A stretch of 64,000 nucleotides of DNA. It comes from Flavihumibacter fluminis (GTDB lineage Bacteria; Bacteroidota; Bacteroidia; Chitinophagales; Chitinophagaceae). Below the pieces are notes generated by a model. The model made no database searches and was not told the origin of the DNA. It worked only from the letters and a program-made list of their open reading frames with translations. Positions 50,421 through 62,457 of the stretch are shown here, piece by piece (position 1 is the first letter of the stretch; the number at the start of each line of letters is the position of its first letter). The translations under genes and the position numbers were made by a program. The stretch is taken from assembly GCF_021491375.1 (NCBI RefSeq), contig NZ_JAKEVY010000001.1:372001-436000 (forward strand), given 5' to 3'.

Positions 50421-51032
50421 TCATTTCCGCTGGCGGACCAGGTGTTTCAATCTGCTGAAGGTTTCTGGTTTGATATTCAGATAAGATGCAATGTACTTTT
50501 GCGATACCCGCTGCATCATATCGGGGTGTTTGTGGATATATTGTAAAAATCGTTCCCTGGCTGTAAGTCGAAAATGTGATAAATCCCGTAGTTCTTTTCG
50601 TATATACATTTCCGATACCATTAGTCTTGCCAGCTTGTTCAGCACAGGAATTTCAGTATAAAGCTTTTCAAGGTCTTCTCGATGAATGGAAAGAAAGGTA
50701 CTGGCTTCGATGGCTTCAATATAGCAATCTGCCGGTTTGCCGGTATGAAAGGATAGTTCGGCATGAATGAAATGTCCTTCTGTTGATAATTGAAGGGTGA
50801 ATTCTTTCTTTCCTGCCCGCATGAATTTCCGAACCACTCCGCTCACAATAAAGTTGAAATAATGATCCACTTCTCCAGGCTGAATAAGCAGGCTTTTTTT
50901 ATCCAGTTTTCGTACAATAAAGTAACTGGTCATGATTTTAAACTCTTCCTTTGTAATGCCACAATAGGCATTCATATAAGCAAAGAGTTCCTGAATTGCC
51001 GGTTGATAGGGTTGTAAGGCTGAAGATTTCAT
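50421..51032 (-). CDS. Crp/Fnr family transcriptional regulator
   Basis: A 203-residue regulator with an N-terminal cyclic-nucleotide-binding-like barrel (about 25-120, SGVVRKFMRAG, LSTEGHFIHAELSF) and a C-terminal helix-turn-helix ending in KYIASYLNIKPETFSRLKHL. The phosphate-binding RSA motif of true cAMP sensors is not evident, so the ligand may be absent or different. It starts five bases after the stop of a paralogue and is convergent with the mntR-like gene. Confidence 0.88.
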   Translation of the reverse strand: MKSSALQPYQPAIQELFAYMNAYCGITKEEFKIMTSYFIVRKLDKKSLLIQPGEVDHYFNFIVSGVVRKFMRAGKKEFTLQLSTEGHFIHAELSFHTGKPADCYIEAIEASTFLSIHREDLEKLYTEIPVLNKLARLMVSEMYIRKELRDLSHFRLTARERFLQYIHKHPDMMQRVSQKYIASYLNIKPETFSRLKHLVRQRK

Positions 51033-51036
51033 GCAA

Positions 51037-51630
51037 TTACTCCTCTCCATTTAGGATATATTGTTTTTTAAACCGGCTGAAGGTTTCCGGTTTTACGTCT
51101 AAAAGGGATGCCAGGTATTTTTGTGGTACCCGTGAAAGAAGATCCGGATTCTCTCTAATAAACTGGGAAAATCGTTCTTTCGGACTGCTGATCATTCTAA
51201 AAGTATCAGTTTTTTCTTTCAACAACATCCATTCTAGGATGATGAGTCGGCCCATTTTTTCAAATTTGACACTGTACTCATACAAGGTTTCCATTCCGGA
51301 TTTAGTAATAAAAGCAAGGGTACAGGGCTCCATGGTTTCAATCACAAAGTCGGAAGGCACACCGGAAAGAAAGGAAACGGATGAACTGATAAGCTGACCT
51401 TCCTTCGAAATCTGAACAGTAATTTCCTCCTGGCCACGGTAGAAATACTTTCGCACCAGGCCTTTTTCAATAAAATAGGTATGTTGCTCCAGTTCTCCGA
51501 TATTGGTCAGCACCTGCTTCGGTACACAGGTCATGATTTGTATCTGTTGACGAAGTACTTTTCGCTCGGCATCAGTCAACTCCACAAACCGGTTAATATA
51601 GGCAAATACATTCGTCCCCATCAGCTTCAT
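51037..51630 (-). CDS. Crp/Fnr family transcriptional regulator (paralogue)
   Basis: A 197-residue paralogue of the following gene, with the same layout: barrel domain (GLVRKYFYRGQEEITVQISKEG, LTFI-type strands) and a C-terminal HTH (KYLASLLDVKPETFSRFKKQ). The recognition helices of the two paralogues are similar but not identical, so partly shared targets are possible. It heads the tandem pair and is divergent from icd. Confidence 0.88.
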   Translation of the reverse strand: MKLMGTNVFAYINRFVELTDAERKVLRQQIQIMTCVPKQVLTNIGELEQHTYFIEKGLVRKYFYRGQEEITVQISKEGQLISSSVSFLSGVPSDFVIETMEPCTLAFITKSGMETLYEYSVKFEKMGRLIILEWMLLKEKTDTFRMISSPKERFSQFIRENPDLLSRVPQKYLASLLDVKPETFSRFKKQYILNGEE

Positions 51631-51733: not shown

Positions 51734-52969
51734 ATGACTAAAAAAATTAAAGTAGCCAACCCGGTGGTAGAACTGGATGGCGATGAAATGACCAGGATCA
51801 TCTGGCAATTTATTAAGGACAAGCTTATCCTGCCCTACCTGGAACTGGATATAAAATATTATGACCTCGGAGTTGAACACAGGGATGCAACCAATGACCA
51901 GGTTACCATCGATGCAGCAAATGCAATCAAGCAATACGGCGTAGGTATCAAATGTGCAACCATAACGCCGGATGAGGCAAGGGTGAAGGAGTTTAACCTG
52001 AAGCAGATGTGGAAGAGCCCGAATGGTACCATCCGAAATATCCTCGATGGTACGGTTTTCCGTGAGCCAATAGTTATTAATAATATTCCCAGGCTGGTTA
52101 CCAACTGGACAGCCCCGATTATTGTGGGAAGACACGCATTCGGTGATCAGTATCGGGCAACTGATACGGTGATTAAAGGAAAAGGCAAACTCACTATGAC
52201 CTTTACTCCTGAAGATGGTGGAGAACCCCAAACCTTTGAGGTATTCAATTTCAAAGGAGATGGTGTAGCCATGTCGATGTATAACACAGATGAAAGTATC
52301 AAAGGTTTTGCACGCAGCTGTTTCAATATGGCACTCAGCAAAAAATGGCCCTTATACCTTTCCACCAAGAATACCATTCTGAAAAAATACGATGGTCGGT
52401 TTAAAGATATTTTTGAAGAGATTTACCAGAATGAATTCAAAACTGCTTTCGATGCTGCTGGTATCGTGTATGAACACCGTTTGATTGACGATATGGTGGC
52501 AAGTGCATTGAAGTGGAATGGCAATTTCGTATGGGCTTGTAAAAACTACGATGGAGATGTACAAAGCGATACGGTTGCACAGGGATTTGGCTCACTCGGA
52601 CTCATGACATCCGTATTGATTACACCGGATGGCAAAACCCTGGAATCAGAAGCTGCACATGGAACAGTAACACGTCACTATCGCGACCACCAGGCTGGTA
52701 AACCAACCTCTACGAATCCAATCGCTTCGATTTTCGCATGGACCAGAGGACTTGCGTTCCGCGGTAAGCTGGATAATAACCAGGAATTGATTGATTTTGC
52801 CAACAAACTGGAAGCCGTTTGTATTGAAACAGTTGAAAGCGGTAAAATGACCAAGGACCTGGCTGTTTGTATCCATGGTAATAAAGTAAAACACGGTGAA
52901 CACTTCCTGTACACACAGGAATTCCTGGATGCTATTGATGAAAATCTTCGTAAGAAACTGGGAGCTTAA
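51734..52969 (+). CDS. icd: NADP-dependent isocitrate dehydrogenase, homodimeric type II
   Basis: A 411-residue enzyme of the eukaryote-like IDH1/2 subfamily that oxidises isocitrate to 2-oxoglutarate in the TCA cycle. Characteristic segments are [67 protein letters not shown] and [12 protein letters not shown]. The length is normal and the ends are clean. It is monocistronic with a strong promoter and terminator. The subfamily differs from the E. coli-type IDH and is common in Bacteroidota. Confidence 0.96.
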
Positions 52970-52986: not shown

Positions 52987-53018
52987 AAAAAAGCGCCTGA
53001 ATCATCAGGCGCTTTTTA
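52987..53018. terminator. Bidirectional terminator between icd and the surface operon
   Basis: AAGCGCCTGA (52991-53000) pairs with TCAGGCGCTT (53005-53014) around ATCA, flanked by A and T tracts on the two sides. It serves icd on the plus strand and the operon ending at 53031 on the minus strand. Confidence 0.88.
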
Positions 53019-53030
53019 TTTTAGTTGAAT

Positions 53031-53297
53031 TTATTCACGATTTCCAACAGACCTTTCGCGTTGCTGGAGTTCCGCTTTCATGCGTTCCTGTTTTACTTTG
53101 TTCTCACGGGCTTCCATTCTGCGCTTTGCCATTATGGCTTCAGCTTCAGCTTTGGACATCATAGGTTTTTTGTGAGGGAGGTTGGCCTGTTTCGCCTGTA
53201 ACTCAGCCCTGCTCAGGCGTCTTTTTTGCTGAGCCGAACTATCTAATGATATACTGAGAAACAGGAGCGTCCCGCTCAGAATCAGAATATTTTTCAT
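53031..53297 (-). CDS. Small basic exported protein, last gene of surface operon
   Basis: An 88-residue protein with a signal peptide (cleavage near SSAQ) and a very basic, helix-forming mature part rich in Lys, Arg, Met, Glu and Ala (KAEAEAIMAKRRMEARENKV). I do not recognise the family. It lies six bases downstream of the 1383-residue repeat protein gene and before the shared terminator. A periplasmic linker or chaperone-like role for the surface protein is only a guess. Confidence 0.65.
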   Translation of the reverse strand: MKNILILSGTLLFLSISLDSSAQQKRRLSRAELQAKQANLPHKKPMMSKAEAEAIMAKRRMEARENKVKQERMKAELQQRERSVGNRE

Positions 53298-53303
53298 ACG
53301 TTC

Positions 53304-56300
53304 TTATTTTACGCTTACTAATACATTTATTTTTCCAATACCACTGCCGGAGTAATCCTGCAGGGCTTTACCCAGCACCTGTCCAACTTTTACTTTATCA
53401 GGATCAGCTTTCATGGCAACTCCCGGAATGCTGGAGGTAACAATCAGGTCACCTCTTTTAATAGCACCGCCTTCCATACAAACCTTAGTTGGCAATACCC
53501 CTATAACGCCCATGGGTACACCAAAACTGAGGTCGCCTTCTGTTGCATTTTCTTCTGTTAGTAACAAACCAGGTTTCGTTGCGTATACTCCCGCTACCAG
53601 GGTAGAATAAGCTCCGCTGGATTTAACCATCTTACGGTCATCGGTAGTTGAAATCTCCAATACATCACCAGGCTCGTACGTATTTCTGTTTCCTACAACG
53701 GCGAATAATTCAGCAACGTCGGCACCGGAATTAGTAGTTCCACCATTAAAGAAACCACGACCATTTTCATCAATACGAGCCACATTGGCACCATTGGTTT
53801 CAAAAACTGCATGAGTGGCAGAACCAGTCTGTCCAATTACAGACTTAATACCAATACCTCCTACCCCACCTTCCACATTGGTTTCAGCTAACAGGCCAAT
53901 TCCAAATGGAGCATATCCATGTACACCTGCATAGGTGTCATCATTTCGACCCGTTACCCCAGCAGCAATATTGGATATGGTTGTACCATAAATGCCAATA
54001 CCATTTCCATAGTTTGCTCCTTCAATAGCAGGAAACTGATCAGTAAGCGTCATTGACATAATTCCTCTGCCAACATTTGAAAAAGCATTTATCCCATCAC
54101 CATTGTCGTTAGTTAATGTCAACAATTCAGCAAAATTAGAGAGATTGAAATTTTCAAATTTTGCAGCAGCCGATTCTACACTTGAAGCATATAATGCTGG
54201 TTCTTTAATACTTCTTGCAACCACACCGTAGGTATCAGTAGATTGACCATACACTCCTACCCCACCGGCAGATTCACCCATAATAGCAGTTCCGCCACCA
54301 CGATGTCTGCCAAACACAGCATATCCATTACTTGTGGTAGTACTTGAAACTTCCCCGAACAGACCAGTCGCAAGAAAACTGGGAGCAGCATTGGTGATTC
54401 TTCCAGCAATACCAATGGCTGCTGGGCCGGCTGAATTGTTCGTTCCGGCTATAGCGGTTCCATTTCCGGAATTCGTTAAACTGAACATTTCTCCAGGAAC
54501 ATTAGTAGTGTTGGTGAAAGGAAAAGTCAATCCTCCACCACCTGCATTATCCGCATCAGGGGCCCATTGGGTTCCATTATATTTAAGTACCTGGCCAACT
54601 GTGGGAGCAGTGGTTGATACAGCTACTCCATTGATCCTTCCAACAGTTGGGTTTGGATAGGTACCGGAGAGATCACCACCTGCAGTTCCACTTACCGGTA
54701 AGGAGGTTGGAATCACACCCGGTGCAAGCTTGGCAGCCGTAATCGCACCATCCTGCACATTCGCAGTGGCAATGGAATTGGTTGCCAGTTTAGCATTGGT
54801 TACTGCACTTGCAGCAATTTTATTGGAGCTGACAGCATTGTCTGCCAGTTTATTGGAGTTTACAGCCGCATCAGTAATCTTTGCAGTGCTTACTGAACCA
54901 TCAGCCAGTTTGGTATTACCAACCGCGCCATCTGCAATCTTTGCTGAGCTTACCGCACCGTCTGCAATTTTAGTTGCAACTACCGCATTGTTGGCAATAG
55001 TTGGGTTCGGATAGGTACCAGTTAAGTCACCACCTGCTGTTCCACTTACTGGTAAGGAAGATGGAATAACTCCAGGCGCAAGCTTGGCAGCGGTTATTGC
55101 ACCATCCTGCACATTGGTTGTAGCTACCGCATTGGAAGCGAGTTTGGCATTTCCAACTGCACCATCGGCAATTTTAGTTGCACCCACTGCATTATTTGCA
55201 ATAGTTGGGTTCGGATAGGTACCAGTTAAATCACCACCTGCTGTTCCACTCACTGGTAAGGAAGATGGAATCACACCAGGCGCAAGTTTGGCAGCGGTAA
55301 TTGCACCATCCTGCACATTGGCAGTGGCGATGGAATTAGTTGCCAGTTTTGCATTGGTTACTGCACTAGCAGCAATTTTATTGGAGCTGACAGCATTGTC
55401 TGCCAGTTTATTGGAGTTCACAGCCGCATCGGTAATTTTTGCAGTGCTTACAGAACCATCAGCCAGTTTGGTATTACCAACTGCACCATCTGCAATCTTT
55501 GCTGAACCTACCGCACCATCCGCAATTTTAGTTGCAACAACCGCATTGTTGGCGATAGTTGGGTTCGGATAGGTACCAGTTAAGTCACCACCTGCTGTTC
55601 CACTCACGGGAAGTGAGCTTGGTATAACACCAGGCGCAAGCTTGGCAGCCGTAATCGCACCATCTTGAACGTTGGCAGTGGCTACAGCGTTGGTTGAAAG
55701 TTTTGCATTAGTTACTGCATTGGCAGCAATTTTATTGGAGCTGACAGCATTGTCTGCCAATTTAGTATTACCTACTGCACCATCCGAGATTTTAGTTCCA
55801 ACAACCGCATTGTTTGCGATAGTAGGATTCGGATAAGTGCCTGAAAGATCACCACCTGCAGTTCCACTAACCGGCAGGGAGGATGGAATCACACCAGGAG
55901 CAAGCTTGGCAGCTGTAATCGCACCATCCTGCACATTGGTAGTAGCTACGGCGTTGGAAGCAAGTTTTGTATTTCCAACTGCACCATCGGCAATCTTAGC
56001 TGCACCTACCGCACCATCTGCGATTTTAATCGCACCCACTGCATTGTTTGCGATGGTTGGGTTTGGATAGGTACCAGTTAAGTCTCCACCTGCTGTGCCG
56101 CTTACCGGCAAGGAAGATGGAATTACACCAGGAGCAATCTTGGCAGCCGTAATTGCACCATCCTGTACGTTGGCAGTGGCTACAGCGTTGGTTGACAGTT
56201 TTGCATTGGTCACTGCATTAGCAGCAATTTTGTTGGAGCTGACAGCATTGTCAGCCAGTTTATTGGAGTTCACTGCTGCATCGGAAATCTTTGCAGTGCT

Positions 56301-57455
56301 TACAGAACCATCAGCCAGTTTGGAATTACCAACTGCACCATCCGCGATTTTAGTTGCACCCACTGCATTGTTTGCGATGGTTGGGTTTGGATAGGAACCG
56401 GTTAAGTCGCCACCTGCTGTTCCACTCACGGGAAGTGAGCTTGGTATTACACCAGGCGCAAGCTTGGCAGCCGTAATTGCACCATCCTGCACATTGGAGG
56501 TGGCTACAGCATTGTTTGCGAGTTTGGCATTGGTTACTGCATTAGCAGAAATTTTATTAGAGTTGATCGCATTGTTAGCGATGGTTGGATTGGGGTAAGT
56601 ACCGGTAAGGTCCCCTCCTGCTGTGCCACTCACTGGCAAGGAAGATGGAATCACACCCGGGGCAAGCTTGGCAGCGGTAATCGCACCATCCTGAACATTG
56701 GAAGTGGCTACTGCATTGGAAGCGAGTTTGGCATTTCCAACCGCACCATCGGCAATCTTTGCTGCCCCTACTGCTCCATCCGCAATTTTAGTCGCACCCA
56801 CTGCATTGTTTGCGATAGTTGGATTCGGGAAGGTACCTGTAAGGTCGCCACCTGCTGTTCCACTCACGGGAAGTGAGCTTGGTATTACACCAGGAGCCAG
56901 TTTAGCGGCGGTGATCGCACCATCTGCCAGTTTATCAGCGGTAATGCTGTTGTTTGCAATTTTTGATCCGGATACAGCACCGTCTTTTATAGTTGGATTG
57001 GGAAAGCTTCCATTCAGGTCCCCTCCGGCTGCTCCAACGGGATTGGCAGATTCTGCTCTGAAGGCAAAAGGTACACTGGTCAACGGACTAGTACCCATTG
57101 CCACAAACTGGCTGCCTCCTTTTGGGTCCATTTCAACCTGCAAAAACTTGGCAGTTCCAGTGGACCAGTTGATTCCATTTAATGAACCGGAAACAGAACT
57201 GGCTCCTTCACCACCTATGGCAGTTGAAAAAAGCCCAAACTGGTTGGTGGTTACGGAACGGGTTTCCTGGTAAATAACAGCTCCGCTTGCATTTGCTTCC
57301 CGGATTGTTAAACGAAGGTTGATGGTGTGATTGGATAATGCGGTACCGTACGTGTTTCTTGCGATACCCTGGTAATTGATCTGTTTTGGCACCTGTGCCA
57401 TCAGGGAACTGCACAAAAACAGGCCTACCATAAATGGCAAAACTTGTTTTATCAT
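53304..57455 (-). CDS. Large surface repeat protein (tail-fibre/collagen-like repeats)
   Basis: A 1383-residue exported protein with three parts. A signal peptide and an N-terminal domain (about 20-135, VPKQINYQGIARNTYG) common in Bacteroidota surface proteins come first. A repeat region (about 135-940) follows with ten copies of a GGDLxGxxPNPT unit, separated by varying numbers of A-V-x-x-x-K-I/L-A-x-x modules. The C-terminal part (about 940-1383) has Gly-rich VGVYGQS-type repeats and a compact end with DVAELFAVV, EPGDVLEIS. The nucleotide repeat runs from about 54640 to 57050. It is probably a fibrous adhesin; no T9SS sorting domain is evident at its end. Confidence 0.85.
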   Translation of the reverse strand: MIKQVLPFMVGLFLCSSLMAQVPKQINYQGIARNTYGTALSNHTINLRLTIREANASGAVIYQETRSVTTNQFGLFSTAIGGEGASSVSGSLNGINWSTGTAKFLQVEMDPKGGSQFVAMGTSPLTSVPFAFRAESANPVGAAGGDLNGSFPNPTIKDGAVSGSKIANNSITADKLADGAITAAKLAPGVIPSSLPVSGTAGGDLTGTFPNPTIANNAVGATKIADGAVGAAKIADGAVGNAKLASNAVATSNVQDGAITAAKLAPGVIPSSLPVSGTAGGDLTGTYPNPTIANNAINSNKISANAVTNAKLANNAVATSNVQDGAITAAKLAPGVIPSSLPVSGTAGGDLTGSYPNPTIANNAVGATKIADGAVGNSKLADGSVSTAKISDAAVNSNKLADNAVSSNKIAANAVTNAKLSTNAVATANVQDGAITAAKIAPGVIPSSLPVSGTAGGDLTGTYPNPTIANNAVGAIKIADGAVGAAKIADGAVGNTKLASNAVATTNVQDGAITAAKLAPGVIPSSLPVSGTAGGDLSGTYPNPTIANNAVVGTKISDGAVGNTKLADNAVSSNKIAANAVTNAKLSTNAVATANVQDGAITAAKLAPGVIPSSLPVSGTAGGDLTGTYPNPTIANNAVVATKIADGAVGSAKIADGAVGNTKLADGSVSTAKITDAAVNSNKLADNAVSSNKIAASAVTNAKLATNSIATANVQDGAITAAKLAPGVIPSSLPVSGTAGGDLTGTYPNPTIANNAVGATKIADGAVGNAKLASNAVATTNVQDGAITAAKLAPGVIPSSLPVSGTAGGDLTGTYPNPTIANNAVVATKIADGAVSSAKIADGAVGNTKLADGSVSTAKITDAAVNSNKLADNAVSSNKIAASAVTNAKLATNSIATANVQDGAITAAKLAPGVIPTSLPVSGTAGGDLSGTYPNPTVGRINGVAVSTTAPTVGQVLKYNGTQWAPDADNAGGGGLTFPFTNTTNVPGEMFSLTNSGNGTAIAGTNNSAGPAAIGIAGRITNAAPSFLATGLFGEVSSTTTSNGYAVFGRHRGGGTAIMGESAGGVGVYGQSTDTYGVVARSIKEPALYASSVESAAAKFENFNLSNFAELLTLTNDNGDGINAFSNVGRGIMSMTLTDQFPAIEGANYGNGIGIYGTTISNIAAGVTGRNDDTYAGVHGYAPFGIGLLAETNVEGGVGGIGIKSVIGQTGSATHAVFETNGANVARIDENGRGFFNGGTTNSGADVAELFAVVGNRNTYEPGDVLEISTTDDRKMVKSSGAYSTLVAGVYATKPGLLLTEENATEGDLSFGVPMGVIGVLPTKVCMEGGAIKRGDLIVTSSIPGVAMKADPDKVKVGQVLGKALQDYSGSGIGKINVLVSVK
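54640..57050 (-). repeat. Coding tandem repeat region of the 1383-residue surface protein
   Basis: About 2.4 kb inside the surface-protein gene is made of nine full units containing VIPSSLPVSGTAGGDL (one with PTS) plus one diverged unit. Spacing between cores varies with the number of short A-V/K-I/L modules. Units six and eight are almost identical in protein sequence but differ at synonymous sites. Confidence 0.85.
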
Positions 57456-57481
57456 GGAATTGGATTTTGCGGTTAAAGGGG

Positions 57482-58030
57482 TTAGTTGATCTTAACTATT
57501 TTATAGGAACCTTTTTTGATTTGCGATCCGGTAACTGGCTCTAATTCAACATATAAAAAATAATTACCGGCTGCTAATCGGGTCATATTGATGGTTTGGG
57601 TAAATCCATAGCCGTAATATTGAAAGCCAGCCTGGGTTAAGCGGATTCCTTTTTCATCATATAGCATACAGCGCATATAGCCAGCCTGTCTGCCAGATAA
57701 CTGAACCTGTAACAGAGATTTTACGGGGTTGGGGAGAATCTTTACCTCTCCCGGAGCAAATGTTGGATCGGAAGCGAGAATGAGCTGTCGCCCTAAATCA
57801 GGCTGAAGCAGTCCCTGCGTTAAAATGAGCGCCTTGTTTTCTGACTGCCTGGTGTCAACCCGTACCAATTCTCCCACACTCCATTCAATGACCAGTTTGT
57901 CATTGCTGAACTGACCACCACCAATATTCACAATGGCAGTGGAAAGATCCTGGCTTTTGGCCAGTTGGGAAGAACAAAGCAGTAGTCCGCATGCCGCCAC
58001 CAATGGTTTTAATTGTTTGGTGCAAAACAT
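57482..58030 (-). CDS. Exported protein with T9SS type A-like C-terminal domain
   Basis: A 182-residue protein with a signal peptide (cleavage near AKSQ), a beta-rich middle (LSTAIVNIGGGQFSND, EWSVGELVRVDT) and a C-terminal domain of about 80 residues that begins KILPNPVKSLLQVQLSG and ends GSYKIVKIN, the pattern of type IX secretion sorting signals. It lies between the larger T9SS cargo gene and the repeat-protein gene with 21-26 base gaps. Such a short cargo may decorate or anchor the neighbouring fibre. Confidence 0.78.
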   Translation of the reverse strand: MFCTKQLKPLVAACGLLLCSSQLAKSQDLSTAIVNIGGGQFSNDKLVIEWSVGELVRVDTRQSENKALILTQGLLQPDLGRQLILASDPTFAPGEVKILPNPVKSLLQVQLSGRQAGYMRCMLYDEKGIRLTQAGFQYYGYGFTQTINMTRLAAGNYFLYVELEPVTGSQIKKGSYKIVKIN

Positions 58031-58051
58031 AGTTTGGATTTCTTGAGGTCC

Positions 58052-60028
58052 TTATTTTTTACGACTCAGAATCATTTTCTGTGTCATAACCTGTTCGTCT
58101 GCGGTTACCTGGATCGGATAAATACCATTGCTCCAGTTTTCAAAACCATCCAGCAGGATCGTATTCAATCCTGCAACCAGTTGAACAGGCTTCTGTTGCA
58201 TTAACGCACCAACTGCATTAAAAATTTTAATTGTACCCAATTGATTTTTAGAAACTACTATGGATAAGCTCGTAGAAGTACGAACCGGATTGGGAAACAA
58301 TTGAAATTGGCCTTCATTTTTGGCAAGTGTCAGTTTGATGGTATTGGAATAGCGAACCGTTCCATCTTTACGTAAAATTTTAATCCTGTAAAATACCTGA
58401 CCTGAAACGATTGCACTGATATTATCATCCATTTTATAGTCAGCATATCCATTTATACTACTGGCAGACAGCAATTTGACACTGTAAAATGATTTCCCAT
58501 CTTCAGCTCTTTCAACTACCAATTGCTCAACCTGTTCATTGGATGAGAGTTCGAGACTTAGTTGTGCCTTCTCTCCCATCAACTGGCCTTTTAGCTGCAT
58601 TCGATTGACCGGAAGAATACCACAATTGGGAGTTTCCATTACCATAACCGTATCCTGGGAATAAATATTACATCCATTTAATAATTGCTGACGAACGATA
58701 TAAGTTCCTGGTGTATCAACAGTTATACTGTACCCAACAGTATCGCTAATGATGTTTCCATCCGGTGTACTCCAGGTATAAACAGATGACGGCAATGGAT
58801 TGATAACGGTCAACGTACTGACGGTTTCATCACCACATATCATAGGTATATCGGCATAGGCATCTGTAGCATCAAAATTGAAGAAATCAAATGGACCAAC
58901 AAAGTCTTTTAATTCAGCGGTAAATGAGGCTGAAGACCTGGTTTTCACTAGAATACGGCGGAATGGCATATCACACTGACTTCCACCTCCAAGCAGGTTG
59001 ATAGGGTCCAAACCCAGAGTACCCATGTTTACTGAGAACTCAAGAAACTGGTTAGCATCATAGGTATTCTGCATGCTATTATCACGACGGATTACTTTAT
59101 ACGGTCCTCCCCAGGTTGCCGCATTATTCTGAAGCCCACTGTAAAAATAATTTCCATTTTTGGGCCGGATTCCTGCATAACCATAGGTAGCACCTGAGCC
59201 ATCTCCGTCAAAAGAACCATCCCAGTTAAAATTCGGACTGTTTATCAGGAGTGCATCTTTATGAACCCAGATTTTTGCAACCAGGTCCTGCAACCCACTT
59301 CCACCAAATTCAGCTGAGAAAATAACATCCCCTGGGACAGTCACTGCTCCAGTTACAGCATCAAATTGCCAACTGGTATGACCTGCATCCGGACCATACC
59401 CAGTGAAACTCTGGGTAGCCCGATCGTAATATATATCTGTCTGATAGAGTTCAAAATCAAAATAACGGCTGCCTGAAGTAGCATCAATTGCAATTCCCCC
59501 AATAAAAAACAGTGAATCGGCCACGGTATGATAACTGGAACTACCTGCCCTTCTTACATGCACCATGATATCAAGGATATCATTTTTCTGGGGTATGTTC
59601 CCATCAACTGCTCCTGTCCAGTTCTGGGGACTACCACCATTTTTATTGGACATTGCATATACAGTGGAATCGGCTCCATGATAGTCACGGATGTAAACCG
59701 CATCAATCAACCTCCGGCCGTCCAGAATGCTTAATGCAGGATAGCGCATCGTACGGAAAAAGGGAAGACGCCTGAAGGCCATATCGGTACTACAACGTGC
59801 AACATAGTAAGCCGCACCCGTAGTATCAATCATAAAACGCTGAGTACCAGTGGAATTTGTAAACCAATCGTGACTTATTGATGGAGATAAGGGGGCTGCT
59901 CCTAAAAATGGAGCGCGCAACTCTCCATCTACACCAAAACTTGCTTTTAACCCAGCAGTGGTGATTTGAGCAGTTGTGGTAAATCTACCAACAATGCATA
60001 GCGACAATAGTAATAGTAGCTTTTTCAT
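58052..60028 (-). CDS. Large T9SS-exported surface protein with PKD-like domain
   Basis: A 658-residue protein with signal peptide (to about residue 21), a long N-terminal beta-rich region rich in Ser, Gly, Asp and aromatic residues, a PKD/Ig-like domain around TVINPLPSSVYTWSTPDGN, and a C-terminal T9SS sorting domain (FQLFPNPVRTSTSLSIVVS through MTQKMILSRKK). It would be carried across the outer membrane and attached to the surface. It is the first gene of the surface operon. The frame extends 12 codons further, but ATG 60028 starts a proper signal peptide. The ligand is unknown. Confidence 0.85.
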   Translation of the reverse strand: MKKLLLLLSLCIVGRFTTTAQITTAGLKASFGVDGELRAPFLGAAPLSPSISHDWFTNSTGTQRFMIDTTGAAYYVARCSTDMAFRRLPFFRTMRYPALSILDGRRLIDAVYIRDYHGADSTVYAMSNKNGGSPQNWTGAVDGNIPQKNDILDIMVHVRRAGSSSYHTVADSLFFIGGIAIDATSGSRYFDFELYQTDIYYDRATQSFTGYGPDAGHTSWQFDAVTGAVTVPGDVIFSAEFGGSGLQDLVAKIWVHKDALLINSPNFNWDGSFDGDGSGATYGYAGIRPKNGNYFYSGLQNNAATWGGPYKVIRRDNSMQNTYDANQFLEFSVNMGTLGLDPINLLGGGSQCDMPFRRILVKTRSSASFTAELKDFVGPFDFFNFDATDAYADIPMICGDETVSTLTVINPLPSSVYTWSTPDGNIISDTVGYSITVDTPGTYIVRQQLLNGCNIYSQDTVMVMETPNCGILPVNRMQLKGQLMGEKAQLSLELSSNEQVEQLVVERAEDGKSFYSVKLLSASSINGYADYKMDDNISAIVSGQVFYRIKILRKDGTVRYSNTIKLTLAKNEGQFQLFPNPVRTSTSLSIVVSKNQLGTIKIFNAVGALMQQKPVQLVAGLNTILLDGFENWSNGIYPIQVTADEQVMTQKMILSRKK

Positions 60029-60796: not shown

Positions 60797-61366
60797 GTGA
60801 CTTCGGATCCGATAGAAAAAGCCTTATTGGAAGGATTGGCCAGGAATGACAGAGCCGCTACCACCACCCTTTACAGGGAGCATTTCGGAATGATTCAGGC
60901 ACTGATTCTCAATAATAACGGAACAGTGGATGATGCCCGGGATGTGTTCCAGGAGGCAATGGTAGTATTGTATGAAAAAGTAAAATCAGGTGAATTTGAA
61001 CTGAGCTGCCAGCTTAAAACATATATATATAGTATATGCAGACGGCTCTGGCTTAAAAAGCTAACTCAAAAACAGCGGTTTTTACCGGAATTGGAGGGAA
61101 CTGATTCATGGATTGCAGTAGAAGAAGATCTGGAACACTTTGAGCAGCAGGACCAGGCATTTCATTTGATGGAAAAAGCGATGAACAGCCTGGGTGAGCC
61201 CTGCCGAAGTTTACTGGATGCTTTTTATCTGCAAAAAAAATCCATGATTGAAATTGCTTCGGTATTTGGATATACCAATGCCGATAATGCCAAGACCCAG
61301 AAGTATAAATGCCTTACCCGATTGAAAAAAATATTCTTCGCCCAATATAAAAACCTGGAAGTATGA
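60797..61366 (+). CDS. ECF-type RNA polymerase sigma factor, coupled to protease fusion
   Basis: A 189-residue sigma-70 family protein: region 2 (ALILNNNGTVDDARDVFQEAMVVLYEKV, TYIYSICRRLWLKKL) and region 4 HTH (LLDAFYLQKKSMIEIASVFGYTNADNAKTQKYKCL). It begins with GTG. Region 4 resembles the sigma factors of Bacteroidota that pair with long-tailed membrane partners. The stop overlaps the next gene by four bases (ATGA). Upstream TTATTTTG is a weak -7 candidate. Confidence 0.88.
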   Translation: MTSDPIEKALLEGLARNDRAATTTLYREHFGMIQALILNNNGTVDDARDVFQEAMVVLYEKVKSGEFELSCQLKTYIYSICRRLWLKKLTQKQRFLPELEGTDSWIAVEEDLEHFEQQDQAFHLMEKAMNSLGEPCRSLLDAFYLQKKSMIEIASVFGYTNADNAKTQKYKCLTRLKKIFFAQYKNLEV

Positions 61367-62457
61367 GAGAAGACATGCAGTTACTGGAAGCCGTAGAACG
61401 TTACCTGAATCAGCAAATGAGTCAGGAGGAAAAGCTGCATTTTGAACAATTGCGTGCTTCCAATCCGGAAGTCGACCATTTGGTTGTTGAACACCAGCTC
61501 TTTCTGCAGCAGATGGAAAATTTCGGCAATCGGAAACAATTCCAGAGCTCCCTAAACGAAATCCATAATGACCTGGTTACAAAAGGTGAAATCAAAACGG
61601 TTCAACCTAAAGTAAAAGTCATTCAATTGGTTGATAAGTATAAAAAGGTATTTGCCCTGGCAGCCTCTATTGCCGGTATTACTGCACTGGCGATTTCCGG
61701 ACTGGTAACCTACTTCACGCCAAAAAGTAACCCTTCGGATATAGCTCAGCTTAAAAAAGAAATCAATACGGTTAAGATCAGCCAGAAACAAACCGAGAAT
61801 GAAATCAATACGCTGAAACATGCACCGAATCGTCCGGCTATTCCAGGAAAATTTGGAGGAACCGGATTCCTGATTGACGGAAAAGGTTACCTGGTTACCT
61901 CTGCCCATGTGGTAGCTAAAGCTGACTCCGTATACATCGTTAATACAAAAGGAGAATACTTCAAGGCAAGAACAGTTCATGTGAATGATCATACCGATAT
62001 CGCTATTCTGAAAATTGAAGATCCCCGTTTTGAGCCGGTTCGCCATCTGCCTTATGGCATCCGCAAAGCAAAAGCGGACCTGGGTGAACAGATCTTTACA
62101 TTAGGTTATCCCCGTACCGAGATCGTATACAATGAAGGATATCTGAGTGCCAAAACCGGTTACAATGGTGATACGGTTACCTATCAGATAGCTATTTCTG
62201 CCAACCCGGGTAACTCTGGTGGCCCCATCTTCAACCAGCACGGTGAAGTGATCGGTGTACTTAGCGGTAAACAGGTTACTGCGGAGGGAGTAGTTTTTAG
62301 CAGCCAGAGTAAGAACATTTTCAGAGCTCTGGACTCACTCAAACAGGATAGCAGCACCACTATCCGCATTCAGAGCAACTCCTCCGTAAAAGGAATTGAC
62401 CGGGTAATGCAGATCAAAAGAATCGAGGAGTGTATTTACAATGTAATGAGTTATTGA
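61363..62457 (+). CDS. Membrane fusion of anti-sigma-like domain and HtrA-type serine protease
   Basis: A 364-residue single-pass membrane protein. Residues 1-90 are a soluble, helical, anti-sigma-like part (LEAVERYLNQQMSQEEKLHF), residues 97-117 a transmembrane helix, residues 122-152 a coiled coil (DIAQLKKEINTVKISQKQTE), and 163-340 a trypsin-like S1C domain. The triad is complete: H182 in VTSAHVV, D212 in HTDIAIL, S285 in NPGNSGGP. There is no PDZ domain. The protease would lie in the periplasm and the N-terminus in the cytoplasm near the coupled sigma factor. Confidence 0.9.
   Translation: MREDMQLLEAVERYLNQQMSQEEKLHFEQLRASNPEVDHLVVEHQLFLQQMENFGNRKQFQSSLNEIHNDLVTKGEIKTVQPKVKVIQLVDKYKKVFALAASIAGITALAISGLVTYFTPKSNPSDIAQLKKEINTVKISQKQTENEINTLKHAPNRPAIPGKFGGTGFLIDGKGYLVTSAHVVAKADSVYIVNTKGEYFKARTVHVNDHTDIAILKIEDPRFEPVRHLPYGIRKAKADLGEQIFTLGYPRTEIVYNEGYLSAKTGYNGDTVTYQIAISANPGNSGGPIFNQHGEVIGVLSGKQVTAEGVVFSSQSKNIFRALDSLKQDSSTTIRIQSNSSVKGIDRVMQIKRIEECIYNVMSY

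Follow-up and report, generated by a model that had tools for sequence, protein, structure and literature searches.

Known surface fibres and the layout of the Flavihumibacter locus

The MAT fibres of Bdellovibrio consist of a signal peptide, a conserved base of ~130 amino acids, a long shaft and exchangeable C-terminal ends, S74 and TNF-like domains among them, and their base is expected by the authors to bind a still-unknown surface element (PMC10769870). SprB-type adhesins, which depend on the type IX secretion system (T9SS), are served by PorP/SprF as shuttles and PorE as anchor, and type A T9SS substrates rely on the PorV shuttle (PMC12618676). A third point of comparison is the phi29 gp12 tail spike, which is cut after residue 691: the models of the spike end at 691 (PMC6542822), and the structure 3gqh spans residues 692–854.

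We analysed a window of 64,000 nucleotides from Flavihumibacter fluminis (contig NZ_JAKEVY010000001.1), for which a four-gene surface operon had been predicted from the sequence alone: a T9SS cargo, a short protein with a sorting domain that may tether a fibre, the repeat fibre and a small basic exported protein (Table 1). All four frames were re-derived from the sequence, on the minus strand and at the predicted positions, and their coordinates reproduce the gaps of 21, 26 and 6 bases claimed between genes 1/2, 2/3 and 3/4. One terminator was said to serve all four genes. A single strong site was indeed found, common to the operon and to a convergent gene of 411 aa (51734–52969), probably an isocitrate dehydrogenase by its sequence; the one other minus-strand terminator-like site within 53031–60028 has 5 pairs and lies inside gene 4. 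We could assign no promoter: the pattern typical of Bacteroidota promoters is no commoner in the window than expected by chance. Amino-acid identities to a relative of the same genus (L235) are 0.84, 0.87, 0.87 and 0.71 for genes 1–4, whereas 47–54% of the four-fold sites differ. Because protein identity is high while four-fold sites have diverged, all four genes, gene 4 too, look real and under purifying selection. The N-termini of all four products are signal-like, as judged by eye only.

The 4.7 Mb genome has a T9SS, its SprA scoring 2500 bits against TIGR04189 (cut-off 200). A search of the genome with the fibre base (FibN) found one place, and a search with gene 2 matched at three places, one of them over its full length and the other two only over the sorting domain of larger frames. 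Nearby genes include two tandem Crp/Fnr-like genes with cNMP-binding domains (50424–51630, minus strand) and, at 60797–62454 on the plus strand, a gene for a sigma-70 region 2 protein and, after it, one for a trypsin-like protease with an N-terminal part that is anti-sigma-like by eye. In L065, frames with starts identical to those of the latter pair adjoin the module; L085 has a similar sigma-like start.

Table 1. Features of the fibre operon, with positions in the window
Feature	Position	Strand	Description
Four-gene operon	53031–60028	-	Coordinates and terminator; conserved module is genes 2–4 (53031–58030)
Gene 1	58052–60028	-	658 aa from ATG; predicted T9SS type A cargo, lineage-specific accessory
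Gene 2	57482–58030	-	182 aa; short head and sorting domain
Gene 2 head	57761–57952	-	~residues 27–90; N..GG..WSxGE..TxGxLQP; proposed fibre-binding part; from conserved columns
Gene 2 T9SS type A-like sorting domain	57485–57748	-	~residues 95–182; from family profile and model fold
Gene 3, fibre	53304–57455	-	1383 aa
Fibre base domain FibN	57033–57392	-	~residues 22–141; related to MAT N-domain
Repeat shaft	54486–57032	-	DUF5907 (PF19264, 6.1e-20); periods of 204–234 and 30 bases
FibC	53307–53741	-	Residues 1239–1383; predicted phi29 gp12-like self-cleaving chaperone fold; cut predicted at A1245/D1246
Gene 4	53031–53297	-	88 aa, basic, probably secreted; linked to FibC fibres
Bidirectional terminator	52988–53017	both	13-pair stem with T-runs on either strand

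Base, shaft and chaperone-like end of the fibre

FibN of the window matched NF053851 (Bdello_MAT_N) over residues 12–85 (E = 1.4e-11, 44.5 bits). Since this score lies below the curated cut-off of 60 bits, we file the domain as a relative, and not a member, of the MAT family; all 23 FibN rows matched the same profile at E ≤ 0.001. The FibN profile gave no relevant match in the PDB. Identity to the FibN of the window ranges from 37 to 96% (22 rows). As predicted, a search with family profiles found no sorting domain in the window fibre.

FibC was modelled with a pLDDT of 80, and the best PDB matches to the model were structures of the phi29 gp12 chaperone (3suc, Z 14.4, rmsd 2.5 over 122; 3gqh, Z 13.9; Foldseek E 4.2e-4). 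The viral structure library returned phage proteins, some of them named tail or pre-neck appendage proteins. The link to gp12 rests on the predicted fold, as the FibC sequence profile had no relevant match in Pfam or the PDB. FibC and gp12 share this fold and their C-terminal place, and Asp1246 of FibC aligns with gp12 residue 692, the first residue of the 3gqh fragment. However, FibC sits on a secreted bacterial fibre, and its cleavage is a prediction. The motif GADxAE is invariant (45/45 FibC rows), and together with the fold it suggests that FibC cuts itself before Asp1246. FibC of the window is 72–96% identical to that of 12 relatives, which exceeds the identities for gene 2 and FibN (the rows overlap but are not identical). 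The closest named relatives of the fibre C-terminus are from Flavihumibacter (99% for L233 and for L234, which is F. cheonanensis). One further locus (L228, 1564–14460, minus strand) holds a frame of at least 4298 aa that runs off the fetched stretch and has a FibC domain at its end.

The phage-type fold of FibC, together with PHROG tail-fibre matches in the repeat region of the window fibre, would fit a domesticated or prophage tail fibre and an operon that is a phage remnant. We judge such an origin very unlikely from comparisons of both domains with phage records and viral contigs. Among 50,697 phage records, FibN of the window had no match (E ≤ 0.01) and its FibC a single weak one; viral contigs yielded three FibC relatives at 33%. 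No phage genes were noticed beside the module in the mapped regions, an observation made in passing.

Pairing of the short sorting protein with the fibre

A type IX sorting domain had also been predicted on gene 2. For the window protein alone this was not borne out by the TIGR04183 score (13 bits, cut-off 23), but the domain is clear at the level of the family, where 20 of 24 gene 2 rows matched TIGR04183 at E ≤ 0.01. The family profile also matched 8glk (E 0.0015). In the structure model, the half at the C-terminus matches T9SS sorting domains of solved structure (8qb1, Z 10.9; 8glk, Z 10.6), a fold match that is not unique, as other Ig-like folds tie with these in Z. The head was modelled with low confidence and has no confident fold; its conserved positions are N, GG, SxGE and GxLQP. 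Identity to gene 2 of the window spans 24–87% (23 rows).

Conservation of gene order in relatives, on which the original prediction had been staked, was found for genes 2-3-4, whose order is kept widely. In regions of the same family selected by gene 2, the fibre directly follows gene 2 in 18/20; of the two exceptions, L097 ends at the contig end and L100 has no fibre. Among the genera in which the pair was found are Flavihumibacter, Pseudoflavitalea, Terrimonas, Ferruginibacter, Chryseobacterium, Epilithonimonas and Pedobacter. That the genes form no functional unit and adjoin by accident is hardly credible: gene 1 is not conserved in place, as such a reading would have it, but the order and tight gaps of genes 2–4 are kept in the named genera and across several families.

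To lessen selection by gene 2, strong FibN matches were taken from 247 genomes of the phylum and 56 fibres were counted. The rest of the 138 matches were left out: the window's own, two that share one gene 2 in L099 (G031 contig 10), a frame in L206 (G239 contig 34) that is interrupted by a stop and preceded by a gene-2-like ORF, and 78 weaker ones. A short gene-2-like ORF (≤ 262 aa) adjoined 42/56 fibres (38 upstream, 4 downstream), compared with 7/256 other same-strand neighbour pairs in the same regions (Fisher 1.5e-32, a value that ignores kinship); the FibN profile behind this count was built mainly from partnered fibres, mostly of gene-2-selected regions. The partnered loci span nine families. 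Upstream gaps range from -4 to 88 bases and are ≤ 26 in 36/38. Among the 42 partners, 17 matched both gene 2 profiles, 2 the head only and 23 the sorting domain only, and at E ≤ 0.01 the sorting domain was of type A (TIGR04183) in 40 and of type B (TIGR04131) in two.

No match to the type A or type B sorting families was found in the last 120 aa of the 56 fibres, although two fibres (L176, L192) run off their contigs and their true ends are unseen. Peptidase_S74 was found at 20/56 ends, and C1q, TNF, Lcl_C and BclA_C once each, so that these fibres combine a constant base with exchangeable C-terminal ends. Bacteroidota fibres follow the MAT plan of signal peptide, base, shaft and exchangeable ends (PMC10769870). 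They differ in having a T9SS-sorted partner, and the gp12-like end of the window fibre has no counterpart in the cited part of the MAT description (PMC10769870).

Among the 14 fibres with no adjacent partner, three (L195, L211, L219) adjoin a gene whose product carries a type B sorting domain, and three (L180, L193, L209) have a gene-2-like ORF two genes away; a sorted neighbour was not found for eight (L186, L201, L203, four in L220, and L223). L220 (G336) is a cluster of FibN fibres that stands as an exception to the pairing. Six weaker or FibC-chosen FibN matches had a gene-2-like neighbour (L226, L230), one two genes away (L225, L231) or none (L227, L232). A scan with FibC found 266 relatives, and 79 loci were retained. 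Among FibC fibres whose 5' end is complete, 58/70 had a gene-2-like ORF at most two genes upstream, and in L287 and L306 it was the third gene upstream. The samples are partly dependent because some of the named FibC loci (L235, L249, L254, L257 and others) lie on contigs already sampled for the family. Distances of gene 2 and FibN correlate (r 0.745, against a mean of 0.726 when partners were swapped within genomes); swapping lowered the correlation in 1970 of 2000 shuffles, a small effect.

Gene 2 could nevertheless be an independent T9SS cargo, merely co-regulated, with the fibre reaching the surface otherwise or having another anchor. The eight fibres for which no sorted neighbour was found, and the head without a confident fold, would fit this reading. 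We regard it as rather doubtful, given a pairing that recurs in nine families with a type A or B domain on the partner and none matched on 56 fibre ends, and given tandem fibres that share a single gene 2 (L099, L180, L193). The recurrence of a fibre with no sorting tag beside a short tagged protein suggests a role for the latter as carrier or anchor of the fibre. The conserved 2-3-4 order lends strong circumstantial support to an appendage with the short sorting protein as candidate tether.

Four Sphingobacterium loci (L258, L261, L262, L273) have FibC fibres that lack FibN and are preceded by a protein of 422–426 aa. Of these proteins two were tested, one of them as a sequence one residue too short, and both have a type B sorting domain at the end. 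Base and partner may therefore change together.

Accessory genes and possible sorting in trans

The sorting domain predicted on gene 1 is clear (TIGR04183, 1.5e-10, 40.9 bits, cut-off 23). Relatives of gene 1 occur in 19/117 genomes of the family, the window's own included, and mostly lie away from the fibre. The fibre module was beside them in only 3/20 regions (L065, L066, L067), these regions being 20 of the 22 places outside the window's genome, and gene 1 was upstream of the fibre in 12/70 FibC fibres with complete 5' ends. On these counts we rejected gene 1 as a core member of the unit. The four-gene system originally proposed is therefore upheld for genes 2-3-4, whose order is widely kept, but not for gene 1, which falls outside the conserved unit because few of its relatives adjoin the fibre module. 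Judged by this distribution, gene 1 is a lineage-specific extra T9SS cargo that probably joined the operon in some lineages.

A small same-strand ORF follows the fibre within 60 bases in 69/80 named FibC loci, most often with a gap of 6; by eye, two of the 69 are of another kind, namely a 60-aa ORF in L266 and a RuvX-like one in L306. Parapedobacter and C. niabensis have a small ORF upstream of the fibre instead. Among FibN fibres, counted together with those of the gene-2-selected regions, 11/12 FibC-positive and 4/68 FibC-negative ones were followed by a small secreted basic ORF; one of the latter four ORFs is a gene-2-like partner (L173) and another a doubtful frame of 62 aa (L182). A single gene 4 family was rejected: a phmmer search of the ORFs of 40 regions with the window protein had the L065 ORF as its sole match. 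What the counterparts have in common is their position, their charge and the short motif L[APVS]S[DEN], found in 38/52 non-redundant small ORFs (shuffled mean 1.5; L266, L287 and L306 were dropped from 70 ORFs and the first 20 residues of each removed). Gene 4 of the window does not have the motif, and LPHKKPM aligns at that place. From this linkage of the small ORF to FibC, gene 4 is predicted to go with the FibC domain.

Six related operons, picked for holding a PorV-sized ORF, contain a PorV gene (L278, L285, L293, L287, L306 and L266, from Pedobacter, Parapedobacter and C. niabensis); the operon of the window does not. PorV of three of them, one each from Pedobacter, Parapedobacter and C. 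niabensis, scored 382–402 bits against NF033710 (equivalog cut-off 250). In whole-genome searches PorV was found above this cut-off at the operon in 6/6 genomes, and a further PorV lay elsewhere in 5/6. Four Pedobacter loci read gene 2, PorV-sized ORF, fibre, small ORF.

We consider it probable that the operon encodes a MAT-like, trimeric fibre of the cell surface with its type IX sorting signal on a separate protein. All four products would enter the periplasm by the signal peptides seen by eye. The fibre would then trimerise, aided by its C-terminal gp12-like chaperone, and FibC would cut itself off before Asp1246. The head of gene 2 is proposed to bind FibN and its C-terminal domain to be recognised by SprA/PorV, so that gene 2 would carry the fibre across the outer membrane, anchor it there, or both. 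We favour gene 2 as carrier or anchor because the pairing is conserved, no sorting domain was found on the fibres examined, and related operons contain PorV genes. Gene 4, from its linkage, may assist the FibC chaperone or act on the newly exposed end of the fibre, and gene 1 would be additional T9SS cargo in some lineages. More tentatively, we propose as one possible reading that the signal acts in trans: a trimeric fibre that is encoded separately and assembles by itself is brought across the outer membrane, or onto it, by a small adaptor, some lineages have their own extra PorV, and the adaptor is the surface element to which a MAT-type base binds.

The PorV genes within related operons point to translocation itself, and gene 2 might accordingly be an escort for secretion only, the fibre crossing the T9SS with it and then being released to the medium or to vesicles, untethered. 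We think this unlikely. In other systems, type B sorting domains reportedly determine where adhesins finally reside on the surface (PMC12618676), and the base of MAT fibres probably lies at the cell surface (PMC10769870). SprB-type adhesins are likewise encoded in T9SS operons with adjoining helper genes, but there the adhesin carries its own type B sorting domain (PMC12618676), whereas here none was found on the fibre and the small partner has one. Among the matches listed for titles and abstracts of the open-access literature, there was no report of a fibre with a partner that bears the sorting domain.

For the surface element bound by the base, gene 2 offers a concrete candidate in Bacteroidota, whose base is only a relative of that of MAT fibres. 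Sorting domains are usually read at the C-terminus of the cargo itself, and annotation would therefore miss partner-sorted proteins such as these fibres. A second point of interest is the predicted presence, on a bacterial surface fibre, of a self-cleaving chaperone of phage type that is tied to a small secreted protein.
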